Below, in pieces: positions 68-24,538 of a stretch of DNA of 39,574 nt (within the stretch, counting starts at the first letter, position 1; every line of letters starts with the position of its first letter). The position numbers were made by a program, and so were the translations under genes. Source of the stretch: Candidatus Latescibacterota bacterium (GTDB taxonomy: Bacteria; Krumholzibacteriota; Krumholzibacteriia; Krumholzibacteriales; Krumholzibacteriaceae); contig JAHOYU010000104.1 of NCBI GenBank assembly GCA_019038625.1, positions 1 to 39,574 on the forward strand, written 5' to 3'. Below the pieces are notes generated by a model, which did no database searches, was not told where the DNA came from, and worked only from the letters and a program-made list of their open reading frames with translations.

Positions 68-379
68 TCATCTGTCCAGTTCCAAAGGGGGACGGTATAC
101 GATCACCTGCATCAGGTATCGTTTGCCCCAGACATAGTGGCTCTCGCGGTCGACAAAGTCCCGCCGCGTCACGCGATCCTGCGCCCGTATATTCTTCTGA
201 TGCTTTTTGATCCAGTCAAGCTTGGAGATGGCGAATACGCGGATACTCTCCATGCTCATATGCGATGGGGCCGAGATACGCACACGGCCTGTCGGAGGAT
301 GGATACTGAGACGAACTCTCTTAACCCTCTTCAGAACCACATCTATCACAATGTCGGTCAATGTGATCTGTTCTGCCAT
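68..379 (-). pseudogene. ygjP: Truncated YgjP/SprT-like M48-type metallopeptidase
   Basis: The 103-residue product (ATG at 379; a TTG at 382 is an alternative) matches the N-terminal half of YgjP/DUF45 proteins: the 'LSIHPPTGRVRISAPSHMS' strand region, 'AISKLDWIKKHQ' and 'RESHYVWGKRYLMQV'. The family is usually about 230-240 residues, with a zinc-binding HExxH helix in the second half. Here the frame stops after 'PPLELDR', so the whole catalytic half is missing and the product should be inactive. In many bacteria this gene sits directly downstream of hsdR of a type I restriction system, and the overlapping upstream remnant fits that arrangement. I infer a decayed restriction locus. Confidence 0.75.
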
Positions 380-462
380 CAATACTCACCCTGCACCTTT
401 ACGGTCAGGAAGATCCGCTCCACCTCGTCCTCATCCTGCGGGATTTTGTACAGGGCAGTATT
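379..462 (-). pseudogene. hsdR: C-terminal remnant of an HsdR-like restriction subunit
   Basis: An open frame without a start codon encodes about 27 residues, including 'ALYKIPQDEDEVERIF', after an in-frame stop at 465-463. Its TGA overlaps the ATG of the YgjP remnant (TGATG), as expected for a translationally coupled pair. Gene order (hsdR then YgjP-type peptidase) and the acidic C-terminal character suggest the last residues of a type I restriction R subunit. The match is from memory of the family and is not verified. The rest of the gene is gone, replaced at about 463-545 by sequence leading into the integron-like array. Confidence 0.4.
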
Positions 463-545
463 TCAGAATGTTAGTGCACAATTGGCTAACCGCCGACAAT
501 AACCAGCGCCGATAAAAGGGTTGAAATTTAGGAAAAGTAACAACT

Positions 546-611
546 TTCTTACGGTCCAGGCAATGAAAGCCGCACAATATTAGGCGTCTGCGTTCATTGC
601 CATTGTTATGC
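546..611 (-). other. Degenerate attC site ending the cassette array
   Basis: Read on the minus strand, the site opens with an intact R''-type box GCATAAC (611-605), right behind the stop of the TIR-GHKL gene. It then has 9-bp perfect inverted arms, GGCAATGAA (603-595) and TTCATTGCC (567-559). The distal box where GTTRRRY is expected reads GTAAGAA (552-546), so it has probably lost function. Its place after the last cassette gene fits the array end. It is less canonical than the other sites because the arms lack clear unpaired bases. Confidence 0.45.
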
Positions 612-615
612 ATTA

Positions 616-1593
616 TCATATCACAGGTAATTCTATTATTACTTTTGTTAACCAAGGCGTGAATTCGTCAGATTTGCCAATATTTCTTTTTAAAGGCATG
701 CTGCCGATGGCTATTTTTCCTGAATGCTTTTCGACTATCTGTTTTGTGTTAAATAATCCTATGCCTAATCCGGATTTGTCAAACATCGCAGCTTGACTAC
801 CCCTGTACCCTTTTTGGAAGATGCGCCTAACTTCAAAATCTTCAATAGGAAGGCCCACATTTTCAATTTCTATTTGTACGCATCCTTTCTTTCTAAATGG
901 ATTTATAACCACTGTAGAATATATGCTTTTTGCCACTTTGAAGGTATACTTTATTGCATTATGGAATATGTTCATAAATGATAAAGAAAGCGCTTGATCG
1001 TATCCATCCGATAAGGAAAACATCGAATCCTTATGGTTTTTAAGTATTAGTTTAATATCTCGCCGCTTTGCATAGTAATCAATATTTTCCATTGTTCTCT
1101 TCAACATACTTATTATATTTACATTTCCTGGTGGCTCTTCGGTATCGTATTCTTGTGATAAAGGGGGGGAATCTTTGTCAATTTCTCCTTTATTTAGTTT
1201 TATTATCTCCGCCATCCTCATTACACCAATATGCCAATCCGGATATAGCATTATGGGTGCAATTTTCTTGAGTTGGGGTTGTGTGGGATCAGAATCGTCC
1301 AGTTGTCCGCGAATTATTTGCCCTCCTGCATGTTTCTTTTCTATAATTCTTAAGGCCTCGTTAATTTCATATTTTGCGTATCTGCCATTATGAACAAAGT
1401 CTCTTGAAACAAGAGCAATTATTGTATCAACCTCCCTCAGTCCCCTTGCAACATATAAAGGCCAATCTTTCTTGCCATATGACTTTTCTACGTCAATCCA
1501 AACTGAAAATCCTATATTTTCCAGATCTGATTTGAGTTTTAGTGCACTATTTTCATTTTCTCTTGCGTACGAGATAAAAAGCTCGCTTCTCAT
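616..1593 (-). CDS. TIR domain fused to a GHKL (histidine-kinase-type) ATPase; candidate defence protein
   Basis: The product has 325 residues. Residues 1 to about 135 form a TIR domain: it opens 'LFISYARENE', and the conserved helix has E76 in 'RYAKYEINEAL', the position of the catalytic glutamate in NAD-cleaving TIRs. After a linker (136-165), residues 166-325 form a GHKL ATPase with N box 'NIFHNAIKYT' (208-217), G1-like 'ENVGLPIE' (244-251) and G2 'GLGIGLF' (275-281). I see no phosphoacceptor HisKA helix, transmembrane segment or receiver partner, so it is unlikely to be an ordinary sensor kinase. It occupies a single cassette followed by an attC. Coding sequence is AT-rich relative to the chromosome to the right. 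An NADase triggered by the ATPase module is inferred, by analogy with TIR defence proteins. Confidence 0.8.
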   Translation of the reverse strand: MRSELFISYARENENSALKLKSDLENIGFSVWIDVEKSYGKKDWPLYVARGLREVDTIIALVSRDFVHNGRYAKYEINEALRIIEKKHAGGQIIRGQLDDSDPTQPQLKKIAPIMLYPDWHIGVMRMAEIIKLNKGEIDKDSPPLSQEYDTEEPPGNVNIISMLKRTMENIDYYAKRRDIKLILKNHKDSMFSLSDGYDQALSLSFMNIFHNAIKYTFKVAKSIYSTVVINPFRKKGCVQIEIENVGLPIEDFEVRRIFQKGYRGSQAAMFDKSGLGIGLFNTKQIVEKHSGKIAIGSMPLKRNIGKSDEFTPWLTKVIIELPVI

Positions 1594-1615
1594 TCTTTTA
1601 CCTAGTTTTTCTTTT

Positions 1616-1714
1616 GCTTAACGTTGGCTTCACCTGCAAGCGTGGCTGGCGCGGCCTGTGCGCCAGCACAAGACGTGACAGGCGCGATTGTCAGTGTGCA
1701 AGCTCTTGTTATGT
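1616..1714 (-). other. attC recombination site (99 bp) after the anticodon-nuclease-like gene
   Basis: The core boxes are ACATAAC (1714-1708) and GTTAAGC (1622-1616) on the minus strand. The arms GCTTGCACACTGACA and TGCAGGTGAAGC pair over 12 bp once three unpaired bases on the first arm (G, A, A) are left out; such extrahelical bases are the hallmark by which the integrase reads attC polarity. A second inner hairpin (CTGGCGC/GCGCCAG) fills the long variable tip. It lies 33 bp after the stop of the upstream gene, as usual for a cassette. Confidence 0.72.
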
Positions 1715-1747
1715 GTAATTCTATATTCCGCTGTCTGCTTCTCAAAG

Positions 1748-3916
1748 CTAATTCCGTGACATCTGGCTGTAGTGATCGGAATACCCCGTCTTCTCAAACA
1801 CCAAACACAGACCTTCCTTGAAGGAATCGTAATCAAATTCTTTCAGATCAAATATGTTCTGCCCCAACGAATGTGACTCACGATTAACGTAGCGACAGAA
1901 CGCCTGGTACTTGGTGTCCTGTAGTTCAGGCATCTGGAATACGTTGTTCAGGTCTTTCCTCTTTACGAAGTTGAAGAAGTACTCAACGATGTTTCTCATA
2001 CAATTGGCAAGCAAGGCAGGTGGTTGGCTGGAATCGTTGACGACCTCCCAATACGACTGGTAGTCGTTCTGAATTTCTTCGTACTTCATATCCAGTATCT
2101 GACTGCCTACGGAATTCTTCACGATACGGAACAATTTCTGCGTACTCTTTCGCCGTTCGTGATTCGGGTCTGTCAACTCGTAGAAGAAATACAAACTATG
2201 CGTTAGAACAAAGACCTGTGTGAAGCGCCTAGACTGAAAGAACAGGCGTTTAATGAGCTGTCCCACATTGAAAATGTAGATATGGGACAGGCTAGAAATC
2301 GGATCATCAATCACAGCTATACGTTGCGTCGCGGTATCATCCGCACTGAGTCGGCCCACGCAGAGCTCGCAGAAATAGAGAAAGCTGATGATCATCTTTT
2401 CGCCTTCGCTCAGGGTATGGAAAGCATCATCAGTTTGGCTGGAACGCACTATTCGGTACAGCCTGTCTGAGTGTTTGCTAATTCTGAAGTCTTCAATTCC
2501 GAGATCAAGTAATCCGGCATTGATGTTCTCTATTGCCTGATCAATGTTTACGGTCTCTTTCTGAACTGCCGATATGATCTTCTTCTGCGCACCAATATGA
2601 TTCTCAAGCACTACTGTTTCTTTTTCCAGAACTCCCGTCTTGCTCTGTGCGTCTTCGCTATCCTGCGAGTACCGCGATATCGTCTGGTCGTACTGCCATC
2701 GCATCAACTGCCAGAACTGGACTTTCAACGCTTCCAAGGATGCGTCTCTGTCAGCAATCTTCGCGTTGTGCTTCCGAATGCGAACGTTGACGCGATCCAT
2801 TGCATCATTGAATGCATCGAATGCAGGCATGGAATCATCTAGCGTTGTTCCTGTACGCGGGTTCTTGAGTTTGTCCTGAATCCTCCGGGCATTACCTTCA
2901 AGCAACTGAACGCAATCACTATAAAGCTTCTCTATCTCTGCTTTGGATTCCGCTGCAAATACGTGGGTGGTGTATTCCGAAGCACTGGGCAAGCTTTCGA
3001 TTGCAGCGCGGTACGCTGTTTCGAGGCCGACAAGAGTTGATACGGCCTCCATATATTCTTGGTCAAAATACTCCGTGATGTTTTCAACTAGCACCGAAGT
3101 GATTGTGCGCTCCTGGCAGAACGGGCACAGGCTGCCTTGGCCGTCTATTTCCGCTGGCAGATATTCGAGTCCCTCCTTCACCCAGTCCGAGTTCTCAAGC
3201 TCCTTGATTAGATCTGCTACAACACTGTCATCGTTGCCGACGATTGCTTTGCTGAGCAGCGTATGTGACTCTACAGAGCGTTGAGAAAACGTGAGTTTTG
3301 GGAGCTCATCTAGAGGCAGAGCGGCTGTGTCCTGCAGGGTCTCGACATCCTTCTTCAGTTTAGGGATGTCTACACTGGGCTCGTCGTTGGGTTTCGCGAG
3401 TGACAAGACATGGGAGAAGAGTTTTCCCTTTTGGCCTTTGAGGCCGTCCAGACAGTACTCAAGCACTCGATCGCCGCCGCAATAATTGGTCTTGATCTTC
3501 CAGATCTCATCTACGGCGTTCTGCTTCTGTCTATCAAAGTCGTCTTGGGCTTTAGCCTTCTCTTCTTGCTTCTTGAGAATGGATTGCTCAAGACCGTCTA
3601 GTTGTGTCTGGGCCAAGGATATCTTTTCCTCTGCCGCTTTGTTCTCTTTGGAGAGACTGAATATTCCCTTTAGGCTATCTGCTTCGTAGAAATGTTCTCG
3701 AATGAACGACTGATTATATACGAGAATGGCGTTCGTCGATTCGGGATTTATTTTGCAGTCCCCGAATCTCGGGGCGTCCGGTTTGTAAAGGAAGTCAGAG
3801 ACTATTGATTTGCCGGTTCCGTTCAGTCCATAGATCAGATTGACTTTCTTGTCAGTTGTGAGAGAGGTCAGCGCTTTATAACTTGCGACCTTCGACATTT
3901 GTATCTCTGCAATCAC
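1748..3916 (-). CDS. PrrC/RloC-like ABC-type ATPase with putative anticodon-nuclease C-terminus
   Basis: The 722-residue product starts at GTG (3916) behind GGAGG. It has the AAA_13 layout: Walker A 'GLNGTGKS' (30-37), coiled-coil arms at about 95-135 and 385-465, a zinc-hook-like 'CPFC' (264-267), ABC signature 'LSEGEK' (502-507), Walker B 'IAVIDDPISSL' (533-543) and an H-loop His573. The C-terminal region carries R641-x3-E645 ('RNIVE') and H682 ('NRESHS'), which resembles the Arg-Glu-His catalytic set of the PrrC/RloC tRNA anticodon nucleases; the E-to-H spacing is slightly longer than in PrrC. The zinc hook points to the RloC branch. The likely role is abortive infection: sensing DNA damage or phage inhibitors and cutting a tRNA. 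It forms one cassette with its attC. tRNA cleavage is inferred, not shown. Confidence 0.78.
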   Translation of the reverse strand: MIAEIQMSKVASYKALTSLTTDKKVNLIYGLNGTGKSIVSDFLYKPDAPRFGDCKINPESTNAILVYNQSFIREHFYEADSLKGIFSLSKENKAAEEKISLAQTQLDGLEQSILKKQEEKAKAQDDFDRQKQNAVDEIWKIKTNYCGGDRVLEYCLDGLKGQKGKLFSHVLSLAKPNDEPSVDIPKLKKDVETLQDTAALPLDELPKLTFSQRSVESHTLLSKAIVGNDDSVVADLIKELENSDWVKEGLEYLPAEIDGQGSLCPFCQERTITSVLVENITEYFDQEYMEAVSTLVGLETAYRAAIESLPSASEYTTHVFAAESKAEIEKLYSDCVQLLEGNARRIQDKLKNPRTGTTLDDSMPAFDAFNDAMDRVNVRIRKHNAKIADRDASLEALKVQFWQLMRWQYDQTISRYSQDSEDAQSKTGVLEKETVVLENHIGAQKKIISAVQKETVNIDQAIENINAGLLDLGIEDFRISKHSDRLYRIVRSSQTDDAFHTLSEGEKMIISFLYFCELCVGRLSADDTATQRIAVIDDPISSLSHIYIFNVGQLIKRLFFQSRRFTQVFVLTHSLYFFYELTDPNHERRKSTQKLFRIVKNSVGSQILDMKYEEIQNDYQSYWEVVNDSSQPPALLANCMRNIVEYFFNFVKRKDLNNVFQMPELQDTKYQAFCRYVNRESHSLGQNIFDLKEFDYDSFKEGLCLVFEKTGYSDHYSQMSRN

Positions 3917-3941
3917 AAATGCTCCTCCATTGATTCAGAAC

Positions 3942-4013
3942 ACATAACGACTAAAATCACCTGTTTTTGTGGAGCGCAGCGGAATAAAAGTCAGGTGCAT
4001 TTTATTGTTATAC
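3942..4013 (-). other. attC recombination site (72 bp) after the Gabija-like pair
   Basis: The core boxes on the minus strand are GTATAAC (4013-4007) and GTTATGT (3948-3942). The arms AAAATGCACCTG and CAGGTGATTTT pair perfectly over 11 bp when one G is left unpaired, the classic extrahelical G of the L'' arm. The tip is about 28 nt of unpaired sequence. The site starts 26 bp after the helicase stop codon and ends 26 bp before the next start. Confidence 0.78.
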
Positions 4014-4039
4014 AATTCACGTTTAGGCACTCAACCTTC

Positions 4040-5917
4040 TCAAATATCTATGATTTCGTCATCCTCAAACCACCCTGCATTCTTCAAGTGGGTGGTTACC
4101 TTCTCCTTTTCGACTGTGTACGCCACGATGGCCAGGCTGTTTTTGGTCCGACTGCATGTGACATAGAATAGTCGTCGTGTCCTGTCGACAGCTGTTTCTT
4201 TCCCATCTGCGAGATTCCTCTGATCAGTTGATGTTGGTTCTTTCGCTCCGAATAGCTTGTCGTAGCTAAACATAAATCCGCGAGCTTCGTTATCGTCCAA
4301 AATCACCATCACACGCGGATACTCCAATCCTTTGATTCCCTGATGGGTCCCAAATGGAGATTCATCCGAGATATATTGGACATAGGATTTCAGTTGGCTA
4401 AATGGAGCGGTAAGAGCCTTGTCCCATGCATCAATGCTTGGATCGTGGGCAGATTCAGCGGGATCATCAGCATCACTCTCATCTTCTGCTGAATCCGGTC
4501 GAGATATGACAGGTGCAAATACGTCAGGTATGGCAAGCAGCCCGATAGCCGCAATTGCTTTCAGAACAGCTATCAGGGATGGATCGTTGTCGTCGTCCCA
4601 CAGGGTAAAGAGCGATCTTACAGTATCGTCGGCTTTGTGGATCTCATCCATTGGCGATTTGCTGAGTTTCAGTGTGTCAGCGGATACAAGCGGGGATTTC
4701 TTGACAATTCGCGCAACAGCAAATCTATCCGCTGATTGCAGTGCCGTTACCAGAGGAAGCACCTTCTGCGCGAAAAACGGAATACCGCTTAATGTTCCAT
4801 CAAGCAATCCGGTCTTGAACTTTGCAACTTGATAGAGCGGTTCGAAGAAGTCACTAAACCCACCTCGCCTCGCGGCCATGTGATGCTCAAGCGTGAGTGT
4901 CTTCACTTCTCTATTCTCTCCAAACCACTGATTGTCTGATGTGACTTCAGCCATCCTTCTGGCAATCTCTGATTCGACAGCGGTCTTGTTGGTCTCATCA
5001 CCATCTTGCACAAGGAACAGTCGGACAAATCCCTCTGAAGCATCTTCTCTTGGCTCCTGTGCTTGCCCATCTGCTTCGGCTCTGATCGTGTTGATGAGCC
5101 TTACGATGCGCTTTGGGCATCTATGGTTGATAGTAATAGCAGGCTTTGCCCAGTCATCTGGAATTGCTTTCGCGATACCCGTTTTCCCGTCTGAATATAT
5201 TCGCTGCATTTCATCCCCGAAGAGAGCCAAACAGAATTCCTTTGAATGCTCTTGCTGAACGGCAAGAAACGCATCGATCAAATCCTTCTGGGTGTCTTGA
5301 ACTTCGTCAACAAGCAGGATCGGATACTTGCGAATCAGAATTCGCTGCATCAGCAGCTTATCTGCAAGAAACGCAGTCGAAATACAGATGACTTCTGTGT
5401 GATTCAGTGAGTTCTTGCCGATGTTGTCGCCATTCGGATTGTAAGCGAAGTACTTGATTGTATCGAGACGAGCCAACCGCGCCTTCTTCTTCTCGATCTG
5501 TACAACACGATCAGCAGAAGCCTTACCAGCTCTGCCCTTTCGCTGCTTTTCTTCGAGGTCGCTGATTTGGGTTGTCAGATTGTGATCGAGCCACTCGCGA
5601 ATATCGTCATGATATGATCGAATCAGTTCCCAAGCAAAGCTGTGAATAGTGGATATTGAGAATATCGGATCGTAATAGGTTCGGTGCTTGATCTCATCAC
5701 ATGCAGCATTCGTATACGTGATGACGCCAACATTCCGACCGGAAAGACGGAAAGACTGGCCATGCTTCTCGCGAAACTTCTTCATTGCTTCAACAACGGC
5801 GCGCGTCTTCCCAGACCCGGCACCGGCAAACAGGAATAAACTCCTGGGATTATCCAGACTGAGACAGTTCGCCATGACATCGGCGAGCTCAGTGGTCTGC
5901 GCGGCAGGATCAGGCAT
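4040..5917 (-). CDS. UvrD/Rep-type superfamily 1 helicase, GajB-like (Gabija-type defence)
   Basis: I start the gene at ATG 5917 (MPDPAAQ...), 625 residues, because GGAGG lies 6 nt upstream and the ATG overlaps the preceding TGA by 8 bp; the open frame extends to 6001 without such a site. The motifs are those of a 3'-5' SF1A helicase: Walker A 'AGAGSGKT' (31-38), Ia 'VITYTNAACDEI', II 'LLVDEVQD' (202-208), III 'FGDEMQRIY' (233-241), IV 'INHRCP' (263-268), V 'THQGIKGLEYPRV' and VI 'RLFYVTCSRTKNSL'. Translational coupling to an OLD-family nuclease makes this the Gabija arrangement (GajA+GajB). It is longer than typical GajB (about 500 residues), so it may belong to a divergent class 2 OLD/UvrD branch. 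Confidence 0.85.
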   Translation of the reverse strand: MPDPAAQTTELADVMANCLSLDNPRSLFLFAGAGSGKTRAVVEAMKKFREKHGQSFRLSGRNVGVITYTNAACDEIKHRTYYDPIFSISTIHSFAWELIRSYHDDIREWLDHNLTTQISDLEEKQRKGRAGKASADRVVQIEKKKARLARLDTIKYFAYNPNGDNIGKNSLNHTEVICISTAFLADKLLMQRILIRKYPILLVDEVQDTQKDLIDAFLAVQQEHSKEFCLALFGDEMQRIYSDGKTGIAKAIPDDWAKPAITINHRCPKRIVRLINTIRAEADGQAQEPREDASEGFVRLFLVQDGDETNKTAVESEIARRMAEVTSDNQWFGENREVKTLTLEHHMAARRGGFSDFFEPLYQVAKFKTGLLDGTLSGIPFFAQKVLPLVTALQSADRFAVARIVKKSPLVSADTLKLSKSPMDEIHKADDTVRSLFTLWDDDNDPSLIAVLKAIAAIGLLAIPDVFAPVISRPDSAEDESDADDPAESAHDPSIDAWDKALTAPFSQLKSYVQYISDESPFGTHQGIKGLEYPRVMVILDDNEARGFMFSYDKLFGAKEPTSTDQRNLADGKETAVDRTRRLFYVTCSRTKNSLAIVAYTVEKEKVTTHLKNAGWFEDDEIIDI

Positions 5918-8165
5918 TCTTGGCCTCCGTTGTTGCGGAGGCCAGGAAATCCTGTTTTCTTTCAGCCAGTTTGACTTCCAGCCATTCAAGCCCTTCAGCA
6001 ATGTAGGCTGGAGGCTTCAACTCGCTTGGCTCGGTAAGATAGAGCAATTCCAAAGCCATCCCGGCTTTACTCCCTGCCCCTAAGCTGTTGAACATCTCAT
6101 TTGCGGCTTCGGGCAAAGTGGGTTTATCAAGGGCTTCTGCAAGCTTCTTCAGTAGGCCTGTGGGGGCCGAATATCCCCGGAACAATTCCAGATTGGTCAG
6201 AGCCAACGAATCTTCAAACGTGTACGGAATGGTTTCTTCTTCAGTAGAGTCATACTTGTACTTGAGCATTATCGGACATTGATAAGCTACCCTGATCTGC
6301 TCATTGTCAGACTGCTTGTCATCGTTGGAACAATCCAGGATTTCATCCAGCGATTGCTTCTTGGGAAGCCATTTCTTAAGTGTGGCATTGCCAGTTCGAT
6401 ACTTCTTGCCCCGTTCGGGAAATATCTTTGCAGTGCCGGTCTCACCGATTGAATCCAAATCCGTGATCACAAGCGAAAGAAGGCCCAGTGTTGCAAGGAG
6501 TGGTTTCAAGCGGTGTGCGTGACTGCCGCCAATCTCAAGCAAGGAGATATAGCTTTGATCCAGCTTCTTGAATCCATTCTTTATGAAATGCGGAACCAGC
6601 ATTCGTTCCGCCGATCCTTCGACAAGAATGGCCGCATCAGCAAAGAATAGATCACAATGCGTCGACTTGATGTAGCGTGTCGCAAATTTCGATGTCTCTG
6701 AAGTACTCCCGAACGTCTTGGAGAGATTCACAACAGTCGCGGAAGGTATCTCTCCTTTCTGCGCTGCGGGTTTGCGCCGAAAATAGCGCAAGCACGTAAA
6801 ATCCAACTCGTGCGCTATATGCGATGAATGCGTGCTGACAATCATCTGAGTATTGAGCTGAGGCCCTGCGAGTTTTGCATGGTTGCGCAGCACCGCATAA
6901 GCCCTCTTGATAAATACCTGCTGAACCTGCGCGTGCAGGTGAGCTTCCGGCTCTTCAATGAGAACAATGTGAAGCGGCTCGATAATGGTCTCATCACCGC
7001 TCTGCTTTCTTGCCGCTTTGCCAACCCGCATCCATTCGTCCCTGAACCGAATCAGGCTGAATACCATGGAGATAAGGTTCTGATACCCCAACCCGTTATA
7101 CTGTTCCGGTAGCGACAAGGCGGCGGTGTCGACACCTTCGGGCAGAACATCAAACTGAACGGCGGCCTTGTGGTCCAAGGTGTCAACAGCACGGAGTTCG
7201 CTGGTCAGAGAAATACGCGGGTCGCTGAAACCCGGATAGTTCAAGCCCTCAAGTTCGCCAATTGCAGGCTTGAAACTTGTTCTTAGCTTCTCGTCAAATA
7301 TCGCCTTTGCCTCTTCGATGGCTTCCAGGGCTTCAATATCGCTGGCATCTGGAGAGTCTGAAGGATTCAAATGCTTGGTGAAATATTGCCGGAGCTGAGT
7401 GGACAAGCTCGCAAATGTGCCCCGTGACTCATCTTCAGTGGTGGGATCTGAGAATCCCCTTTGGGCCGTGATAACGTCAATCTTGAAGAGACCGTCAAAT
7501 GGGTCCCGGTCCATCGGTTCACTGTCAGCAGGAAGCGGCTGGGGTCTAGCCACTCCTTTCTCTGGATCACAGCATTTCGCAGGGTCCAGGATGTACGCCT
7601 TTACCTCAAACTGTTCTCGAAGAGTCCTGTCCAGGAAATTGCGCATTGATCCCGGCCATAAGGATAATCTGCGCTTCCCTTTTGATGAATCGGATGGTTC
7701 GGTGTCTCGGGCCGCTTGATAGGCATCGCGAAAGTCTTTGTACAGCTTTTCAATGTTAATAGGGGCGAATACCAGCCGGACACCGAGTTTCTGCTTAGGT
7801 GTCCAGTCAAGTGTTGGGAGCAGATGAATAACATGGTGGATATCCGCATCAGCGGCATTAAGCCAGATATCGATGGATGGCAAATACGGCAGCCATTGTG
7901 CGAGGGTAAGGTCTGGCAAAGTGTCGTCGTCTGCACTTACCCAATGTGTGCCGATTTGATTGATCTGCGACCAATTCGACAGAGTGAAGTCCGTGGTTGC
8001 GATATTGTTGCGACGGTGCTTCTTGAGGAACAGACTCATCGAATCTATCGCGGAGGTCTTGCCGCTATTATTCGCGCCGACCAGAATCGTTTCCTGTGAA
8101 GCAATTTCTACCCTGCAGGATTTGAGTTTGCGGAAGTTCTGGATCTCAACAAAATCAATGTTCAT
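5910..8165 (-). CDS. OLD-family ATPase/TOPRIM nuclease, GajA-like (Gabija-type defence)
   Basis: ATG at 8165 (MNIDFVEIQNF...) is chosen over the in-frame upstream start at 8228 because GAGG lies just before it and upstream codons run into the attC. The 751-residue product has an N-terminal ABC-type ATPase with Walker A 'GANNSGKT' (30-37), Walker B 'HIVLIEEPEAHLH' (399-411) and 'MIVSTHSSHI' (441-450). A TOPRIM nuclease follows: 'ILVEGSAER' (513-521; E516, E520) and 'VITDLDS' (566-572; D569, D571). Family members are DNA endonucleases controlled by nucleotide binding. The following helicase gene overlaps it. Canonical GajA is about 580 residues; this one has extra sequence between the ATPase halves and after TOPRIM. 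Assignment to OLD nucleases is firm, Gabija membership likely. Confidence 0.85.
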   Translation of the reverse strand: MNIDFVEIQNFRKLKSCRVEIASQETILVGANNSGKTSAIDSMSLFLKKHRRNNIATTDFTLSNWSQINQIGTHWVSADDDTLPDLTLAQWLPYLPSIDIWLNAADADIHHVIHLLPTLDWTPKQKLGVRLVFAPINIEKLYKDFRDAYQAARDTEPSDSSKGKRRLSLWPGSMRNFLDRTLREQFEVKAYILDPAKCCDPEKGVARPQPLPADSEPMDRDPFDGLFKIDVITAQRGFSDPTTEDESRGTFASLSTQLRQYFTKHLNPSDSPDASDIEALEAIEEAKAIFDEKLRTSFKPAIGELEGLNYPGFSDPRISLTSELRAVDTLDHKAAVQFDVLPEGVDTAALSLPEQYNGLGYQNLISMVFSLIRFRDEWMRVGKAARKQSGDETIIEPLHIVLIEEPEAHLHAQVQQVFIKRAYAVLRNHAKLAGPQLNTQMIVSTHSSHIAHELDFTCLRYFRRKPAAQKGEIPSATVVNLSKTFGSTSETSKFATRYIKSTHCDLFFADAAILVEGSAERMLVPHFIKNGFKKLDQSYISLLEIGGSHAHRLKPLLATLGLLSLVITDLDSIGETGTAKIFPERGKKYRTGNATLKKWLPKKQSLDEILDCSNDDKQSDNEQIRVAYQCPIMLKYKYDSTEEETIPYTFEDSLALTNLELFRGYSAPTGLLKKLAEALDKPTLPEAANEMFNSLGAGSKAGMALELLYLTEPSELKPPAYIAEGLEWLEVKLAERKQDFLASATTEAKNA

Positions 8166-8212
8166 GTGGTTACCTCGGTTTCCCCGTGTCGCATTGGGAA
8201 ATAGCCTTATTT

Positions 8213-8272
8213 GTATAACGGTTGACATAACCGGCCCGCTGAAAGCGGGTCCGGTTCATGGAGTTGTTAGGC
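8213..8272 (-). other. attC recombination site (60 bp) after the two-helix membrane protein gene
   Basis: On the minus strand the boxes are GCCTAAC (8272-8266) and GTTATAC (8219-8213). The arms CATGAACCGGACCCGCT and AGCGGGCCGGTTATG form a 15-bp stem with a 3-nt loop once one G and one A on the first arm are left unpaired. That asymmetric pair of extrahelical bases is typical of attC and fixes its orientation as the same as its neighbours. The site begins 11 bp after the stop codon of the upstream gene. Confidence 0.85.
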
Positions 8273-8283
8273 GGCATGATCGT

Positions 8284-9186
8284 TCATGCGTCTTCCGCCA
8301 TCTGATCGGCCCATGGGAAGCGTCTCTGCTTCCTTTCTTCAAGGAACTCAGCTACCACTAGATCAACACCTTCCTCGAATAGAAATTGCCGGACCGGACG
8401 TTCACTTGCTGCCATCGCCTCTTCCTTGGATACGGAAACCACCTCCACACCAGGGCTGAACTCTTGTAGAACGGATACGACACGATCAACAATTTCTAGG
8501 TTCTGCTCGCCATGGATGACGTAAAGCACACCGCAACGCGACTGGTTCCGCCATTTTGCCAGATATTGATTAGCCGGCCAGCCCACAACATTAGTATTGA
8601 ATCCATGCGTTGCGAGTCCTTTCGCGATATCTTGAGCTGCATCCCACGCCTCATCGACTGTATCCATCCCCGCCACCTCAATCATGAATTCTCCGTTTTC
8701 CGTAAATGTGACTTGTTCGGCTTCGACGGCAGCTATTCTGGAGTCACGAACTTCCTGATCTGATGCTTCTTCGGGTACAGAACCAACTCTAGAAATCAGC
8801 CTTTCCATCTGTTGCTCTACCGCATCTATGCGAGCGACTTCAGCATTTGACCGAATTGCGACGCTCGAGCGCAGGTTCGCGAGTTCCGCGGGCACATCTG
8901 ATCCAACAAGTTCTATTTTATTCGTCATCGCGCGAACATATGTTCCTACATCAACTGTAGTTCCGAACTCGGTGGGCGGGTAAAGGACGTAGGGTCTAAA
9001 CCAAAGTATCAGAAAGAAAGCAATAGCGACCACGCTGGGAAACGCGATCGCGAAAACAGTCAATGCGACTTGGACATTTCCAGTCGCTTGGGTGACTGCT
9101 ATACCTGTGACAACCTCCGTCAGCGATAGGAAAAGAGAGATCACCCAAAGGGGTGTCATTTTATTGTCTTTGCGTGTTTCTGCCAT
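8284..9186 (-). CDS. Two-helix membrane protein with coiled coil and unknown alpha/beta C-terminal domain
   Basis: The 300-residue product starts behind a strong GGAGG. Two N-terminal membrane helices are visible (about 12-31 and 40-63), then a polar region, a probable coiled coil (about 100-160, rich in A, E, R, V and I) and an alpha/beta domain (about 165-265) with two similar halves ('AWDAAQDIAKGLATHGFNTN' and 'GVLYVIHGEQNLEIVDRVV'). The C-terminal domain faintly recalls the LytR_C fold, which I would not assert. The tail is charged. I do not recognise a family. It is a lone cassette between a DUF6236-like gene and the Gabija-like pair, so a membrane-acting defence role is possible but only inferred from context. 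Confidence 0.8.
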   Translation of the reverse strand: MAETRKDNKMTPLWVISLFLSLTEVVTGIAVTQATGNVQVALTVFAIAFPSVVAIAFFLILWFRPYVLYPPTEFGTTVDVGTYVRAMTNKIELVGSDVPAELANLRSSVAIRSNAEVARIDAVEQQMERLISRVGSVPEEASDQEVRDSRIAAVEAEQVTFTENGEFMIEVAGMDTVDEAWDAAQDIAKGLATHGFNTNVVGWPANQYLAKWRNQSRCGVLYVIHGEQNLEIVDRVVSVLQEFSPGVEVVSVSKEEAMAASERPVRQFLFEEGVDLVVAEFLEERKQRRFPWADQMAEDA

Positions 9187-9207
9187 TCCCCCTCCTTACC
9201 TAGTGCC

Positions 9208-9267
9208 GCCTAACGTTGCTAATCAGCCGCGCGGTTTTTTGCGTCGGCTGAATTAGTTTTGTTAGGC
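9208..9267 (-). other. attC recombination site (60 bp) after the DUF6236-like gene
   Basis: This is the most canonical site of the window. The minus strand reads GCCTAAC (9267-9261) ... GTTAGGC (9214-9208), perfectly complementary outer boxes. The arms CTAATTCAGCCGACGC and GCGCGGCTGATTAG pair over 14 bp with exactly two unpaired bases (T and A) on the first arm. The box starts 2 bp from the stop codon of the upstream gene. Confidence 0.9.
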
Positions 9268-9269
9268 CC

Positions 9270-10379
9270 TTAGATTATTCCCCATTCCTGAGCATGGTAA
9301 AGATAGGAAAACTCACTTCCTCTTAAGGCTGCTCTTTTTTTATTAAATTCACTTACTAGATAATGTCCCACTTCAATTGCACCCACCAAGGTCAGACCTG
9401 GTATTGTCCATTCAAGTGGAAGATCAGCAATTTTCGTCGCTTGGTCTGCAACTAATCCAGCCGTTCCCCATAAGGTAGGGGATTTGACATTTACAATTGT
9501 TTTTAAACAACCTGTGGCTGTCTCAATACCAGATTCTTTCATTAATTCAGTCAGTTCACTTACACCTAATTCTATATTTTCTTTAAAACCAGCTAAAACT
9601 TGGTTTACTATGTTTTTGTTTTCCGAATCGGATAAATCTCTATGAAATTGATCAAGGCTTGAACGAAAATTTAACAATGCCATCCTATTTTTGTTGTTTT
9701 CTTTGAAATCTAATATATCCGCGATAGAAACATCTTCGCGAGGAATTGGAAGGCTGTTTTTGAATTTGACATCCAAACACGAGAATCCTTCATTTAAGCT
9801 TGGAGACTTGAATACCAATCCTTCATAAATGTTAAGATTTGTTCCAGGCATAGTGTGATTAATATCAATATCAGCTAAGTATTTTGCTAATAAGGCCATA
9901 TATAAAAGACCTGTATTATTTTCGAAACGGTACCACTCCCCCTCACCTTCCCATTTTTTTGCTAAACCATTTCTCTGGAGCCAATCAAAAAGTCGATTAG
10001 ATACCTTGTCATGATGTATTTTTGAATTATAAAAACGCTTTTTGTTTTTTGGAACCAATTTTTTAAATGATTCGGATTTCACAATTATTTTAATTTCTTC
10101 AAAAAATTCGTCATGTTTTTCAAAATGGTTTTCTAATTTAAGAAAATTATCTGGAGGAATTGGCCTGAAAACATTCTTATCAAAAAGATATTCTATGTCA
10201 GGAGAATAGGGTATTACTGGCTTCGTTTTGTCGGTTTCATAATCATATTTTAATGGTACAATAGATGCCAACTCATCCCAATACAACAATGCTTGCTTGA
10301 GCCATGACCCTTCAGGAAGTGCTATAGTGGGATAATAAAGAATCGTTCGATTAATCTTGGTCTTATCTTTTCCTATCAT
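9270..10379 (-). CDS. DUF6236-like protein of unknown function, first cassette
   Basis: The 369-residue product opens 'INRTILYYPTIALPEGSWLK' followed by 'ALLYWDELASIVP', which I recognise as the signature start of DUF6236-type proteins. No catalytic motif, signal peptide or clear transmembrane helix is seen, although a glycine/alanine-rich hydrophobic stretch near the C-terminus ('GTAGLVADQA', 'IPGLTLVGAIEVGHYL') could form an amphipathic or membrane-inserting segment. A GGAGGATAAA ribosome site precedes the ATG. Coding sequence is strongly AT-rich (runs of A/T, many AAA and AAT codons) compared with the surface-protein genes next door, a sign of foreign origin. It lies closest to the attI-like site and would be the best expressed cassette. 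Its role is unknown. Confidence 0.75.
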   Translation of the reverse strand: MIGKDKTKINRTILYYPTIALPEGSWLKQALLYWDELASIVPLKYDYETDKTKPVIPYSPDIEYLFDKNVFRPIPPDNFLKLENHFEKHDEFFEEIKIIVKSESFKKLVPKNKKRFYNSKIHHDKVSNRLFDWLQRNGLAKKWEGEGEWYRFENNTGLLYMALLAKYLADIDINHTMPGTNLNIYEGLVFKSPSLNEGFSCLDVKFKNSLPIPREDVSIADILDFKENNKNRMALLNFRSSLDQFHRDLSDSENKNIVNQVLAGFKENIELGVSELTELMKESGIETATGCLKTIVNVKSPTLWGTAGLVADQATKIADLPLEWTIPGLTLVGAIEVGHYLVSEFNKKRAALRGSEFSYLYHAQEWGII

Positions 10380-10415
10380 TTTATCCTCCCTTGAGGAGTT
10401 TTCTCAATTCAACTT

Positions 10416-10434
10416 GCCTAACACACTCTTAGGC
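10416..10434 (-). other. attI-like simple core site upstream of the first cassette
   Basis: On the minus strand the site reads GCCTAAG, a 5-nt spacer AGTGT, then GTTAGGC, i.e. two inverted 7-bp integrase boxes. No long hairpin arms are found beyond it, unlike the attC sites. That is the layout of the simple site of attI, where the right box is the GTTRRRY crossover point and the left box is degenerate. The first cassette gene begins 37 bp downstream. It could instead be a decayed attC from a lost upstream cassette. Confidence 0.55.
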
Positions 10435-10555
10435 TGCTTGAAGTTATATTTATCAAATCACTCATATACATCTATGAATCCGATTGTATGTCCTTAATGC
10501 GTCCCTTGGTTGCTTGGAAAGCAAATAGTATCACAATGATAGTGTTTTTTCACTA

Positions 10556-10584
10556 CTTAAATTTGATTTAATGCGAAGTGTCAA
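10556..10584 (-). promoter_or_regulatory. Pc-like promoter reading into the cassette array
   Basis: TTGACA (10584-10579), a 17-bp spacer and TTTAAG (10561-10556) on the minus strand form a good sigma-70-type promoter. It points at the attI-like site about 120 bp downstream and the first cassette gene about 175 bp downstream. Integron cassettes normally depend on such a Pc promoter. An imperfect palindrome (TTACGCCA/TGGCGGTAA, 10592-10612) lies just upstream and could be an operator. Confidence 0.45.
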
Positions 10585-10720
10585 ATATAGTTTACGCCAG
10601 CATTGGCGGTAAGAATCCTTGCAGTTAGTGCAGGATAAGTCCATAGACAGTAGTATTTGTGAACCGAGACAGGGTATGGCAATTTGCCTTCTACTTTATA
10701 TTGAGAGAGGGGGAAATGCC

Positions 10721-10811
10721 ATCAGCCTCGTCGCGAGATTCCGCAGCACGCAACACTTCAACAAGAGCAAGGAGGGGGATTTATCAGTCTCATCGCGAGA
10801 TTCCGCAGCGC
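10721..10811. repeat. Pair of 29-bp direct repeats, offset by 62 bp
   Basis: Copies at 10721-10749 and 10783-10811 share 26 of 29 positions (core TCGCGAGATTCCGCAGC). Each is preceded by a purine-rich G run (GAGGGGG type) at a similar distance, so the repeating unit is probably longer. They lie about 90 bp beyond the 3' end of the 1,330-residue surface protein gene. Two copies with a 33-bp gap are too few for a CRISPR. Confidence 0.7.
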
Positions 10812-10898
10812 ACCATCTGTAAAGCTGAATATTGAAAGATGTTCGTGGCGCGCGAGGACTGCTTGAGCAGAAAGGCAAGATCCCATGCCCTGGCGAGG

Positions 10899-13800
10899 CT
10901 ACCGTACCCGCACCCTGTACACAACCCTGCCCTCTTCCCCCGGAGCAAGACTGAACGGCGCCTGCCTTGAGAGCAACACCCGAAGCGTAGATGTCCCCGC
11001 ATCGAACATCCCCTCATCGGCATCGAGCGGATCAGCAGTGAGATAGAAGCTGATGCCACTGCGTACCCATTCGATATCGTTGCCAGGGCCGAAGGCATCG
11101 GGTACAAGTTCAACGGCTGGGGAGACAGGATCGATGATAACTATCTCCAGGACATCATCGAGTCCCGGATTGGAGAATATGATCGTATAGGTCACGATAT
11201 CGCCCGGACGCGCAGTAACCAAGTCGACTTCTTTAACGAGATTGAGTATACCGCTCGAACTGGACAGCACAGTCAGCTGATCGGTGACCGAGGCGGCCGT
11301 CGTGATAGCTGTACCCGAAAGTGTCTGGTACAGGGTTATTACTGCCATTCCCGTAGTCCCCGCTGGTACGGTCGCGGGAACGAAGATCCTGACGATTACG
11401 GTAACCATATCCTGTCCCGGAACAGCCGGATCGAGGTCGAGGTCTGCCGAAGTGAGCAGCACGTCTCCCACATCGAAGAGTCCGTCACCATTAACATCTC
11501 TGTACCACACATCGGCCCATCCGGCGGGCAGTGATATCCCGACCGAAGCCTGTCCGGCAGTACCTGCTGTTATCATGTGTGGAAGATCGATGAATCCCCC
11601 CGCGGGGCCGTTACGGACGAGCGAAGGAGCGATCACCGAGATCATAACGTCTGCAAAATCTATAAACACAGTATCCCCGGCCGCAAGAACACCAGCCGAG
11701 ACAGTATCTGGACTGAGGCTGATCATCCCGGAAGGGGTCGTTGAAATCACGTCACGAAGCAGGCCTGCCGGGATCTCGAAAAGATATGACCCATCGGCGC
11801 CGGTTGCCATATTGTACGGAGTCGATGGATCGGTCACTGTCACATTCACTCCCGGCCATCCTGGTTCTCCAACATCGTAGACACCGTCATGGTCCGCATC
11901 ATCAAAGACACGCCCCACGATAAAGGCCGAAGTGATAACTTCCAGCTCGACGCTGTCCTCGAGGTCACGTGAAAGAGCCCTTCCATCGAGGATCAGGTTT
12001 GTCCTTGCCGCGGCCGTAGCCGGTATCGAGACTCTTACCGTATAGGCGATGGAATTTCCCGGATCGATGACCGGAGTCTCAAAAGGCGACGCGTGGTCGA
12101 CCAGACCGTCAAAGATCATCACGGAGCCCACCGGCCATCCAGCCGGATCGTTCCATGTCACTTCGAACGAGTCTGGCGCGCCGCCCCTGTTAAAAACTTC
12201 AAGGATCGCGGTGACCATAGTGGCCGGCGATCCGAAGATCATTGCCGTTCCTCCGCCACCTGACCCTGCGGGCGCGGTCACGAGCGCCCCGTCGCCATCG
12301 ATGACCAGATCGACCTGCGGAGGCGGATCGATATGTACGTTCGCTATTATACTTTCGACATTGGTCGGATCGACTGTAGAAATAACATCTATTATATATG
12401 CGTAGTCGGATGGCAGGGCGCTCTCGGGAATCGTTACCTGGAACGAATAAAGTCCCGAAGTCCCACCCGCGATCACAGGTGTGGTCCACGGTGAACTATT
12501 ACCCGCAAGAAGGGCCATCCATCCCGGAACGCTGTTCCAGTTCAAAGTATACGCCTCCGGGTCGCCACTCTCGTTCTGAAGTTCGACGGTGAAGACGATA
12601 GTCCTGCCGCCGATGGTGGCCTGAAGCGAGCTTCCCCCGTCACCAAGGCCAGGTGTACCGAAGATATCATCACCATTGCCGTCGATCAGAGCATCGACAA
12701 GATACTGATAGCTTACGACCACCCGTCCCAGGACACTGTCGACGAAATATCGTTTATTCGATTTCATGCCGTCGACGATGATGTCGAATGTGCCCCCGGT
12801 GCAAGTCAGGGGAACGATGACCTGGAGAATGAAATCGCCTGCCGAGCAGTTCGTCGGAGAAAGTCCCCCGTCGAACAACACTGTCCACCCCGCAGGGGTG
12901 TTCCACTCGATATCGAAGGTATTCGCCCCACCCTCGTTCTCCACGGTCACGAGGAAATTGATCGTGTCGCCCGGGTTGGCCAGCGCCAGCGAACTTCCTC
13001 CAAGCCCCGTTCCAAGAGGCCCGTATGTATCTGCTCCGTTCCCGTCTATCATCAGGTCGGTCTCGTTCCCCGACGCGACCGATATGCCGGCCGTCACACT
13101 TTCACTTATCCTGCTGTCGGTCATCGAGACAGCATCGAGTATCGATACAAATGTGTTGAATGCGGCATTCCCGGGAATCGTGACCGCGAGTGTATAATTG
13201 ACCTGCGAACTCACACCCAACTCAGGAGTAGTCCATGGGAAAGCGTGATCTGTCGTCCCGTCATTTATAACCGCGGACCAGCCTCCGGTCGGTTGGGTCC
13301 AGTCAAGGGTGAATGAATCTGGGATGGAGCCCTCATTCTGGAGAATGATCGGGAAAATTACCGTATTGGACTGCTGCCCCGATATGGTGGAGCTGCCACC
13401 GAGACCGGCGCCTGTAAGATCGATGATATCGTCTCCGCTTCCGGCGATGACTATATCGACTTTCGGAGCTATGACACGTGTGACCGCGGTCACACCATCT
13501 TTTCTCAAGGTATCAGAGATCGACGATGCGTAGACGAGCGTCTCGTAATCCCCTCCCGACATCGAAAGCGGAATAATCGTTCTCAGAGTAAACGAGGCCG
13601 TACCACCAGGACTCAGCGCCGCTGTGGTGAACATCCCCGTGTAGGTAGCAGCACCATAAACGATCTCGGCTGTCAGAGGCGTTTCAGGAGAGAACCATAC
13701 CCTGAACGAGTCGGTGACTATCCCTGAGTTCATCAATTCCACATCATATTCCACTGTCGCGCCGACTCCTGACTGAAGGAATGAGATGCCTCCGCCTCCA

Positions 13801-14888
13801 TCGGGGTCGATCACTCCAAATCCATTCGCGTCTATCGCAAGATCTGTCAGATAATCAGACGGCACTACATTCGTCACGAGCGATACGCTGTCGAACCTCA
13901 GTCCGAATGAAGTCGATACTGCATCGAGTATCGTCGTATATCCAGCGACTGATTCACCCGCAGGAATGGTCAGACTGACCGTCGCCTGTATCGACGCTCC
14001 TGAAGGTATCGAGGGGGTCGTCCAGGGCAGCGGATAATCTGTGCCGCCGTAATTCAGCACGGCGATCCAGCCGGCGGGGAGTGAAACGGATAGGGTGTAG
14101 GAGTCGACATCGAGACTTTCGTTCTCGACATCTATCAGGTAGGACACCGTTTCACCCGCCTCGCCACTGCTGGAAGAACTGCCTCCGCCTCCCGTACCGG
14201 GATCCGCGAAGAGGTCGTCACCATTACCGTCGACGATCAGGTCGACATATTTCGAATAGATCAGAGACACGTCATCGATGAATGTCCACGTCTCGAAAAG
14301 ATTGTCGTAAGTGTTTTCCTGCCGGAAATGGATCCTGACAGTCTGTCCGGCCCATGGCGACATATCGAAGCCGCCAGGCCCGATCCAGCCGCTGTCCTTG
14401 AACTGATTGTTCCATTCGTCGAATGAGAAATTGACCACGGTCGCGAGAACATTGTCCGAGAGATCTCGCACTTCCACTATGAACGGATCGTAGTTGACTC
14501 CATCGTACCCCTGCTGCCTGAATCTAAAGAAGAGACTGGCTGCAGAGACGTTGGCAGGGATGGTCACGTCATGATACATGAAACCATGCCTGTTCCGGCG
14601 CTGGGTAGTGTACTTGAATCCAAGCAGGGCCGAGTAATTACCCGCGTACGGCAGATCGAGCGCGACCATGTGGTCGGCCCAGCTGTCGTTTGTGCCTCCA
14701 TTGTTATTACCGCCACTATGGACCCACTCGGAAGTGAAGCTGCCTGTCTCGAAAGTACCGCCAACTATCAGTTCGCCGGCGGACAGGGCGCCTGGAACAA
14801 GCGCGCAGACAAACGCGGCAAGGAGTATCGCCAGCGTGCTCACCTTCTGGAACATCCCCGTAAATTTATTTTCATTTCTTTTTGTCAT
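10899..14888 (-). CDS. Large secreted protein with six DGNGDD-headed repeats, SdrD-B-like and DUF11-like domains
   Basis: The open frame extends to a TTG at 14909 that overlaps the previous stop. I favour ATG 14888, about 1,329 residues, because AGGA lies 6 nt upstream. Numbering below is from 14909. A signal peptide ends near residue 44 ('GALSA'). Residues 45-220 form a jelly-roll-like domain. Six repeats of about 122-133 residues follow, each starting with a 'VDLxIDGNGDD'-type line near 220, 353, 483, 615, 737 and 865, followed by 'GxGGGGSS' and an Ig-like fold. Near 980-1060 is an SdrD-B-like domain ('GRVFDDADHDGVYD'), and the C-terminus is DUF11-like ('NLVKEVDLVTARPGDIVTYT'). The acidic lines may bind calcium. 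It ends without a sorting domain or barrel, so its anchoring is unclear; coupling to the barrel protein upstream suggests they work together. Confidence 0.8.
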   Translation of the reverse strand: MTKRNENKFTGMFQKVSTLAILLAAFVCALVPGALSAGELIVGGTFETGSFTSEWVHSGGNNNGGTNDSWADHMVALDLPYAGNYSALLGFKYTTQRRNRHGFMYHDVTIPANVSAASLFFRFRQQGYDGVNYDPFIVEVRDLSDNVLATVVNFSFDEWNNQFKDSGWIGPGGFDMSPWAGQTVRIHFRQENTYDNLFETWTFIDDVSLIYSKYVDLIVDGNGDDLFADPGTGGGGSSSSSGEAGETVSYLIDVENESLDVDSYTLSVSLPAGWIAVLNYGGTDYPLPWTTPSIPSGASIQATVSLTIPAGESVAGYTTILDAVSTSFGLRFDSVSLVTNVVPSDYLTDLAIDANGFGVIDPDGGGGISFLQSGVGATVEYDVELMNSGIVTDSFRVWFSPETPLTAEIVYGAATYTGMFTTAALSPGGTASFTLRTIIPLSMSGGDYETLVYASSISDTLRKDGVTAVTRVIAPKVDIVIAGSGDDIIDLTGAGLGGSSTISGQQSNTVIFPIILQNEGSIPDSFTLDWTQPTGGWSAVINDGTTDHAFPWTTPELGVSSQVNYTLAVTIPGNAAFNTFVSILDAVSMTDSRISESVTAGISVASGNETDLMIDGNGADTYGPLGTGLGGSSLALANPGDTINFLVTVENEGGANTFDIEWNTPAGWTVLFDGGLSPTNCSAGDFILQVIVPLTCTGGTFDIIVDGMKSNKRYFVDSVLGRVVVSYQYLVDALIDGNGDDIFGTPGLGDGGSSLQATIGGRTIVFTVELQNESGDPEAYTLNWNSVPGWMALLAGNSSPWTTPVIAGGTSGLYSFQVTIPESALPSDYAYIIDVISTVDPTNVESIIANVHIDPPPQVDLVIDGDGALVTAPAGSGGGGTAMIFGSPATMVTAILEVFNRGGAPDSFEVTWNDPAGWPVGSVMIFDGLVDHASPFETPVIDPGNSIAYTVRVSIPATAAARTNLILDGRALSRDLEDSVELEVITSAFIVGRVFDDADHDGVYDVGEPGWPGVNVTVTDPSTPYNMATGADGSYLFEIPAGLLRDVISTTPSGMISLSPDTVSAGVLAAGDTVFIDFADVMISVIAPSLVRNGPAGGFIDLPHMITAGTAGQASVGISLPAGWADVWYRDVNGDGLFDVGDVLLTSADLDLDPAVPGQDMVTVIVRIFVPATVPAGTTGMAVITLYQTLSGTAITTAASVTDQLTVLSSSSGILNLVKEVDLVTARPGDIVTYTIIFSNPGLDDVLEIVIIDPVSPAVELVPDAFGPGNDIEWVRSGISFYLTADPLDADEGMFDAGTSTLRVLLSRQAPFSLAPGEEGRVVYRVRVR

Positions 14889-14905
14889 CTTCATTCCTGT
14901 GCTCT

Positions 14906-20749: not shown

Positions 20750-20807
20750 GGCGCCGCCTCGCAACATGGATACAACAACTACGTCTCTTCAATATTTTCA
20801 GCCCACA

Positions 20808-20831
20808 GGCGGGGGGACAATGCCCCCCGCC
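20808..20831. terminator. Very stable GC hairpin between two surface-protein genes
   Basis: GGCGGGGGG and CCCCCCGCC form a perfect 9-bp stem with a 6-nt loop, 14 bp after the 900-residue protein gene ends on the minus strand. There is no clean T run after it, so it may be an intra-operon attenuator or RNA-stabilising stem that sets a ratio between the two genes. Confidence 0.5.
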
Positions 20832-20844
20832 CATGGTGTATCAA

Positions 20845-23547: not shown

Positions 23548-23565
23548 TGCCGATCACCATCCTTC

Positions 23566-23583
23566 TGCCCTCTTTGGAGGGCA
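23566..23583. promoter_or_regulatory. Small leader hairpin before the 900-residue protein gene
   Basis: TGCCCTC/GAGGGCA form a 7-bp stem with a 4-nt loop, about 19 bp upstream of the start codon. A second short stem (CCCC/GGGG near 23603-23616) lies just before it. Together they could control readthrough from the 163-residue gene. Confidence 0.35.
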
Positions 23584-23646
23584 TTCCATCTAATTAAACT
23601 CCCCTGCATCGGGGCACTAAATACCAGAATCAGGAATTTCGGCCGT

Positions 23647-24138
23647 CTACTTTACCTGCACGCGGTAAGAGACTTTGATTTCCTGCCCTGCGTCCAGCGA
23701 ACCATCGATCGACCACTTGATATGAGTGATCATTTCGGGTCGGGCGACCTTCATCTCTACGGTGCCGTCCTTTCGAACGACCTCGTACATCACCGGCGCC
23801 TGGTGATACGTCTCACCGTCGTCGATGCTGAAAATGGTGCTCATCCCTTTGATGTCGCTTGCAGTTTTCTCAAGATAAACCGTGCCGGAAGGAACCGGGC
23901 CCACGAGGCCGATCCCGGACGCGGAAGAATCACCGGTATTGCTGTACCGGAGCGTGTACTCTACCATGTCCTTTGGATATACCTGTTCAGCCGACACTGC
24001 GATCTCACGGTTTTCCTCATCCATGACGATGCGGTGTGCTACCATCTCACCACTGAGAACCGGGCCCTCAGCAAATGCGGATGTCGCTCCCGCGGCCATG
24101 ATTATGAGAAAAATCGCAGCCGAAAGACTCCGTCTCAT
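23647..24138 (-). CDS. Small secreted DUF11-like protein, first gene of the surface cluster
   Basis: The product is 163 residues. ATG at 24138 follows AGGAGG by 9 nt. A signal peptide ends near residue 23 ('TSAFA'). The mature part is one DUF11-like Ig domain: 'YPKDMVEYTLRYSNTGDSSA', 'PVPSGTVYLEKT', 'DDGETYHQAP', 'MITHIKWSIDGSLDAG', ending 'VSYRVQVK'. The same closing pattern, with a 'VRW/IKW...AG' strand near the C-terminus, occurs at the end of the 900-residue protein downstream, so these are related modules. It could be a minor subunit or cap of the same surface structure. No enzymatic motif is visible. Confidence 0.78.
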   Translation of the reverse strand: MRRSLSAAIFLIIMAAGATSAFAEGPVLSGEMVAHRIVMDEENREIAVSAEQVYPKDMVEYTLRYSNTGDSSASGIGLVGPVPSGTVYLEKTASDIKGMSTIFSIDDGETYHQAPVMYEVVRKDGTVEMKVARPEMITHIKWSIDGSLDAGQEIKVSYRVQVK

Positions 24139-24161
24139 CTATCTGTCCTCCTTTTTCCATT

Positions 24162-24469: not shown

Positions 24470-24538
24470 GGTCTTGCTCTGTGCGAAGCCTTTCGCAAAA
24501 TGCGAGATTCATTCAACCTTCAAGGCTGAGAACCCGGA

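Follow-up and report, generated by a model that had tools for sequence, protein, structure and literature searches.

An integron cassette array without an adjacent integrase, with large and partly defence-related cassettes, in a Krumholzibacteriota genome

The stretch of DNA analysed here, called the window, is the entire contig C104 (JAHOYU010000104.1; 39,574 bp) of a Candidatus Latescibacterota bacterium (GCA_019038625.1), a member of the Krumholzibacteriota whose draft genome comprises 3.78 Mb in 269 contigs. Six minus-strand genes, arranged in five units, span positions 616-10379. As an earlier sequence-only reading had proposed, this locus is very probably a genuine chromosomal array of integron cassettes without an adjacent integrase (cluster of attC sites lacking an integron integrase, CALIN), in which whole anti-phage systems would be stored. 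Five attCs were found where a CALIN needs at least two, and the integrase profile TIGR02249 gave no match on the contig. A complete integron, with a functional intI and an adjacent attI, was not found: the host has just an N-terminally deleted intI on contig C99. The array appears to be more than the loose cluster first described, since it begins at a conserved attI-like leader common to other arrays of the genus.

attC sites of the array

Two attC covariance models were used on both strands. The first, R1, derives from 16 class 1 integron attCs carried by named plasmids and was run unfiltered over the window; R2, a lineage model, derives from 38 attCs of relatives. Neither includes any window sequence. 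The members of R2 were first chosen using R1, so that the models are not fully independent of one another, but both are independent of the window; their E-values are rough. The structure of R2 covaries, with a score of 0.40 vs. 0.15 after shuffling and 104 vs. 34 cells changed on both sides. The sites are as follows:

9208-9267, minus strand: attC of cassette 1, 60 bp (R1 33.7 bits, E 1.3e-6; R2 37.6 bits, E 7e-8; fold z -5.8)
8213-8272, minus strand: attC of cassette 2, 60 bp (R1 42.1 bits, E 9e-9; R2 43.5 bits, E 2e-9)
3942-4013, minus strand: attC of cassette 3, 72 bp (R1 25.1 bits, E 2e-4; R2 44.6 bits, E 8e-10)
1616-1714, minus strand: attC of cassette 4, 99 bp, of a long type common in the phylum (R2 81.3 bits, E 6e-20; R1 9.5 bits, E 2.3)
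484-611, minus strand: attC of cassette 5, 128 bp, the weakest (R2 17.6 bits, E 0.025; R1 8.8 bits, E 3.4)

The first four had been singled out as the best sites from the letters alone, together with the genes and their strand, and R1 and R2 recover them to the base. All five attCs lie on the minus strand in one orientation, as had been claimed, and score far higher there than on the plus strand. Folded as single DNA strands, the bottom strands of the sites form long imperfect hairpins with bulged bases (z -2.5 to -5.8). The RYYYAAC and GTTRRRY boxes, the imperfect hairpin, the extrahelical bases and the strand preference that characterise an attC were thus all found, with R2 E-values of at most 7e-8 for four sites and R1 E-values of at most 2e-4 for three. 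R1 alone ranks 8213-8272 above 9208-9267 and 3942-4013, with 1616-1714 and 484-611 at chance level.

Concerning the ends of the array, the attC placed near 546-606 does exist, its limits being 484-611, whereas the site at 10416-10434 is no attC and holds an attI-like core. The boxes of site 484-611 are GCATAAC (R'', 611-605) and GTTAGCC (R', 490-484), and in its stem CAAT[G]AAC[G]CAG[A]CGCC pairs with GGCGCTGGTTATTG; a shorter version of this site may be 535-611.

Site 1616-1714 shares 91.6% identity over 95 bp with an attC of the relative G039, and 9214-9267 shares 92.6% over 54 bp with an attC near intI in G020. Because of these near-identical counterparts, 9208-9267 and 1616-1714 are recurrent attCs and not local hairpins. 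A box-plus-stem scan of the 39.6 kb window gave five matches at four sites, only in the array region, and 60 shuffles of that region gave a mean of 0.03 matches per 10.5 kb. The other 29 kb of the window held no convincing R1 or R2 match, the best R2 match there being at chance level, and an Rfam search of the window returned nothing at the gathering threshold. A genome search for the pattern GTTRRRY...RYYYAAC, which has the wrong box order for an attC, was useless alone (23 places per strand vs. 74 in the reversed control).

These results bear on the idea of an ordinary defence island, in which hairpins or transcription terminators would stand between the genes by chance. Three of the five units are defence systems and defence genes are often clustered, yet this explanation is refuted at the sequence level by the matches to both models, and the common orientation, the recurrence of two attCs in other genomes and the lack of relatives with the same gene order add to this; its probability is negligible.

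Cassettes and their genes

Measured from G^TT to G^TT, cassettes 1-5 are 1208, 995, 4271, 2326 and 1132 bp long, which bears out the large sizes (about 1-4.3 kb) read from the sequence. As for the 61 comparison intervals, taken from relatives and other host contigs, their median is 862 bp and their maximum 2772 bp. The GC content of the cassettes is 35-51% vs. 54% for the chromosomal part of the window, and two of them are of foreign composition. The contents of the array are:

9214-10421, minus strand: cassette 1, 1208 bp, 35% GC, limited by the G^TT of the leader core and that of attC 9208-9267
9270-10379, minus strand: DUF6236 protein of 369 aa (PF19749, E 1.7e-12)
8284-9186, minus strand: gene of cassette 2, a membrane protein of 300 aa with hydrophobic stretches at its N-terminus and no Pfam or PADLOC match
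3948-8218, minus strand: cassette 3, 4271 bp by its G^TT to G^TT distance, a complete two-gene Gabija
5910-8228, minus strand: GajA, an OLD-family ATPase with a TOPRIM domain and the Walker A motif GANNSGKT (PDLC00093, E 1.8e-279; PF20469; solved GajA, E 7e-7)
4040-6001, minus strand: GajB, a UvrD-like helicase (PDLC00111, E 9.7e-241; PF00580)
1748-3916, minus strand: gene of cassette 4, an AAA_13 ATPase of the PADLOC candidate family PDC-S06, with Walker A GLNGTGKS and CxxC motifs (PDLC04886, E 1.2e-256; PF13166)
616-1593, minus strand: gene of cassette 5, a TIR domain fused to a GHKL ATPase, 325 aa (PF13676, E 3e-15; PF02518, E 1e-10; PADLOC PDC-M43B, E 6e-15)

The gene pair by which Gabija is recognised was found in cassette 3, namely an adjacent GajA and GajB with OLD ATPase/TOPRIM and UvrD-type helicase domains; the start of GajB is likely the ATG near 5917, overlapping the gajA stop. 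As for Thoeris or other TIR systems, which are recognised by a TIR protein with its known partner, TIR-GHKL is a single gene, to which PADLOC assigns candidate families only, e.g. PDC-M43B. At least three defence-like cassettes had been read from the sequence, and PADLOC families are indeed matched by three of the five (Gabija, PDC-S06 and TIR-GHKL), vs. about 5 of the 54 proteins from comparison cassettes, at E 1e-8 and with matches tallied as distinct family names. The resulting enrichment (Fisher p 0.015 to 0.022) is only suggestive of an array richer in defence than the comparison cassettes, because the numbers are small, the comparison cut-off was stricter and the array was chosen for its defence-rich look.

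The cassette genes do not form one conserved island, in line with the sequence-only reading. Among 80 genomes of the phylum, GajA had no relative at E 1e-60 and the AAA_13 protein a single one, 27% identical; the plasmid homologues of these two proteins belong to organisms that differ from each other. No relatives of GajA or of the TIR protein were found in viral contigs, nor any relative of the TIR protein in plasmids. In 58 of 59 comparison cassettes of the phylum the main open reading frame lies on the attC strand. The sole opposite one encodes a probable IS110-family transposase, antisense in the array beside intI in relative G007 (L063 10877-11905).

The distance of 4.2 kb between attCs 8213-8272 and 3942-4013 exceeds a 4 kb attC-clustering limit, which is a software search setting and not biology; under this rule two CALINs, divided at the Gabija cassette and with at least two attCs each, would be reported.

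The attI-like leader and the host integrase

At its 5' end the array is headed by the following sequence:

10415-10641, minus strand: leader of about 225 bp, its inner end being an attI-like core (76% identity to contig C155 of the sister species G001, 81% to host contig C243, 84% over 56 bp to host contig C142)
10416-10434, minus strand: attI-like core GCCTAA-GAGTGT-GTTAGGC, read directly from the sequence, with GCCTAA at 10434-10429, a 6-bp spacer and G^TTAGGC at 10422-10416

The inverted boxes of the core and their 6-bp spacer resemble those of attI1. At three loci the leader homology breaks off at the core, and alignments ending there are expected if different cassettes follow a constant attachment site. 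What was found is thus what an attI sequence should present, a G^TTRRRY core at the 5' end of the array and different cassettes joined to a constant upstream sequence. On G001:C155 the leader heads a different array, in which two attCs are visible, the second of them followed by part of a type IIG restriction-methylation gene (E 1e-152). Concerning the other copies, that of host C243 has just degenerate attC-like traces nearby and that of G001:C102 is partial and without an array, while the array of C142 is headed by the 56 bp listed above (E 6e-10; the alignment beats 1000 shuffles), ending at a G^TTAGG core. The contexts of the leader differ, a surface-protein cluster in the window vs. ExbD-type genes in G001:C155, and C243 and C102 alone share neighbours. 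The greatest novelty of the finding lies in this repeated leader, which is not the attI found next to intI.

No consensus promoter on the array strand was found in the leader; TTGACA is nonetheless conserved in its copies. A further feature of the copies, at 10588-10612 in the window, is an imperfect inverted repeat (TTACCRCCA...TGGTGGTAA) with a conserved TTTGACA after it, perhaps serving as terminator or operator ahead of a promoter.

A search of the other host contigs did yield an intI, though an N-terminally deleted one: the sole TIGR02249 match above cut-off (C99:29222-29845) is without about its first 113 residues, i.e. its N-terminal third, and is 90.6% identical to the intact IntI of G001. 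The native attI could be delimited by comparison, C99 and G001:C157 being homologous for 268 bp downstream of intI up to ...CCCGAAATATTG^TTAGA and wholly different thereafter. Contig C99 ends just within the first cassette (intI and attI region 29222-30160), and the sister contig C157 ends on the same side. Host attCs were found on at least five further contigs, including C59, C142, C74, C40 and C207, with cassettes mostly of unknown function.

The integrase could be missing merely through a break of the draft contig, array and intI being continuous in the real genome. The contig does end shortly past the last attC, and in an assembly of 269 contigs many links are missing. However, intI and attI head an array from its 5' end, the side on which the window has 29 kb of continuous chromosome without intI; moreover, the only integron intI of the genome already precedes its own attI and other cassette sequence. 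Such a break is therefore a very unlikely explanation.

For a CALIN headed by an attI-like leader, the following course is proposed. Five cassettes would have been captured from unrelated sources, head to tail behind the leader, each consisting of a gene or operon and, downstream of it, an attC that recombines through its folded bottom strand. The IntI of the genus, acting in trans, would have inserted them at the leader core before losing its N-terminal third. Expression would be supplied by the leader, the cassette systems would protect the cell against phage, and the array would now be fixed unless an outside integrase were supplied.

The origin of the leader admits several explanations. 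Tentatively, it may be a dispersed landing platform, i.e. a copy of attI that spreads alone in the genome, so that one integrase could build several arrays in trans. It is also possible, if not favoured, that the array is the remnant of a second complete integron, with the leader as its own attI region and the upstream integrase deleted. The length of the leader is close to that of the 268-bp stretch separating intI from the attI core in C99 and G001, the core is comparable, and the relative G009 has an intI no more than about 2.5 kb from the chromosomal gene cluster which in the window adjoins the array. Against this, the leader recurs at no fewer than three unrelated loci with about the same start and end points and never with an intI remnant, repeated loss at one boundary being unlikely, and there is no second intI type in the two genomes of the genus. 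A third explanation, off-target insertion at secondary (attG-like) sites by an integrase in trans, would reduce the leader to a mere chromosomal neighbourhood. CALINs have been proposed to arise, among other ways, through off-target insertion by a distant IntI (PMC8618304), and arrays lie about 1 Mb from intI in G007, a single-contig relative; but a chance site would not be repeated at several loci as a conserved stretch of some 225 bp that breaks off at the core each time, and this account is improbable. A simple attG empty-site junction, with the leader joined to the 3' flank, was not found in the examined loci, which is a weak test as few relatives share the locus.

Several observations weigh against the array as described here. 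The fifth attC is weak, and the contig stops 480 bp past it, so that the array may be longer than seen here. The deletion in intI could be an assembly error in a draft of this kind. The likeness of C142 to the leader rests mainly on 56 bp at 84%. Finally, the sequence of the leader is not that of the attI next to intI (comparison with the attI of C99: no similarity beyond chance), so that its use by the IntI of the genus is only presumed.

On the 3' side, the array is bordered by one further feature:

68-463, minus strand: C-terminal tail of HsdR and a truncated YgjP-like gene (PF01863, E 2e-14 for the YgjP part; the HsdR part from reading the translation only)

This flank, beside the last attC, is a probable remnant of a broken type I restriction locus. 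On the other side, a short repeat (TCGCGAGATTCCGCAGC...) occurs in two copies at 10684-10871 and is also present in G001 contigs C26 and C151. Positions 10899-27358 hold a cluster, syntenic across the family, that encodes DUF11/SdrD-like surface proteins of very large size in which OmpA and T9SS sorting domains occur; in G009 an intI is near the equivalent cluster, whose other end in G007 is next to intI and a short array.

Integrons of Krumholzibacteriota and comparison with known systems

The lineage had been regarded as one in which integrons are little described. No paper mentioning both Krumholzibacteriota and integron was found in the open-access literature searched, and the phylum is absent from a 2021 list of integron phyla (PMC8618304), but the elements themselves are not rare: integrons are near-universal in Krumholzibacteriota. 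attCs (E ≤ 0.001) were found in 58 of 80 genomes and in 39 of the 46 better ones, most best matches being below 1e-10. IntI exceeded the curated cut-off in 27 of 58 relatives vs. none of 14 control genomes, and at least a dozen genomes (e.g. G054, G049, G020, G007, G030, G046 and G052) have attCs on the strand of intI and on its 3' side. Comparison genome G054 matches JAKLEB010000004.1 (Candidatus Krumholzibacteriota RA.bin123) with full identity along 11,989 bp, and the host was assigned by the search tool to that class as well.

The known range of integrons is thereby widened by one phylum. A single cassette can hold a complete multi-gene defence system of more than 4 kb. Arrays with cassettes of this size are broken by the 4 kb attC-clustering limit, so that surveys may undercount defence in integrons. 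While the origin of CALINs is usually left at three proposed alternatives, the repeated orphan leader offers a testable route to arrays without integrase. Should the leader be a dispersed landing platform, integrons could gain further capture sites with no further copy of the integrase, and the array of the window would have come to hold large phage-defence cassettes in this way.

Like the CALINs of IntegronFinder 2.0 (PMC9024848), the array has several attCs of the same orientation, cassette genes between them and no intI at the locus; unlike them, it opens with a conserved leader, attI-like and present in several copies in the genome. A search with the 4 kb clustering limit of PMC9668308 would split it in two. 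The sedentary chromosomal integrons of Vibrio (Darracq 2025; Getz 2025; reviewed in PMC12409362) likewise hold anti-phage cassettes in a chromosomal array, whereas the present case concerns another phylum and a small array, with no integrase at the locus and a deleted gene elsewhere, and with multi-kb cassettes that include a known two-gene system. In the chromosomal integrons of Treponema (PMC3607928), an unrelated phylum, intI is oriented towards the array, as in Krumholzibacteriota. Archaeal integrons (PMC9668308) also have attI immediately downstream of intI, and most of their arrays are CALINs in metagenome-assembled genomes; the Krumholzibacteriota differ from them by their bacterial host and several orphan attI-like leaders. 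As for Gabija, the pair found here resembles the known system in its adjacent, co-oriented genes, for a GajA with OLD-type ATPase and TOPRIM and for a GajB helicase, but differs in being packaged as a single integron cassette with its own attC. Two traits thus set this probable CALIN apart: a complete Gabija system contained in a single cassette of 4.3 kb, and an orphan attI-like leader that is found repeatedly.
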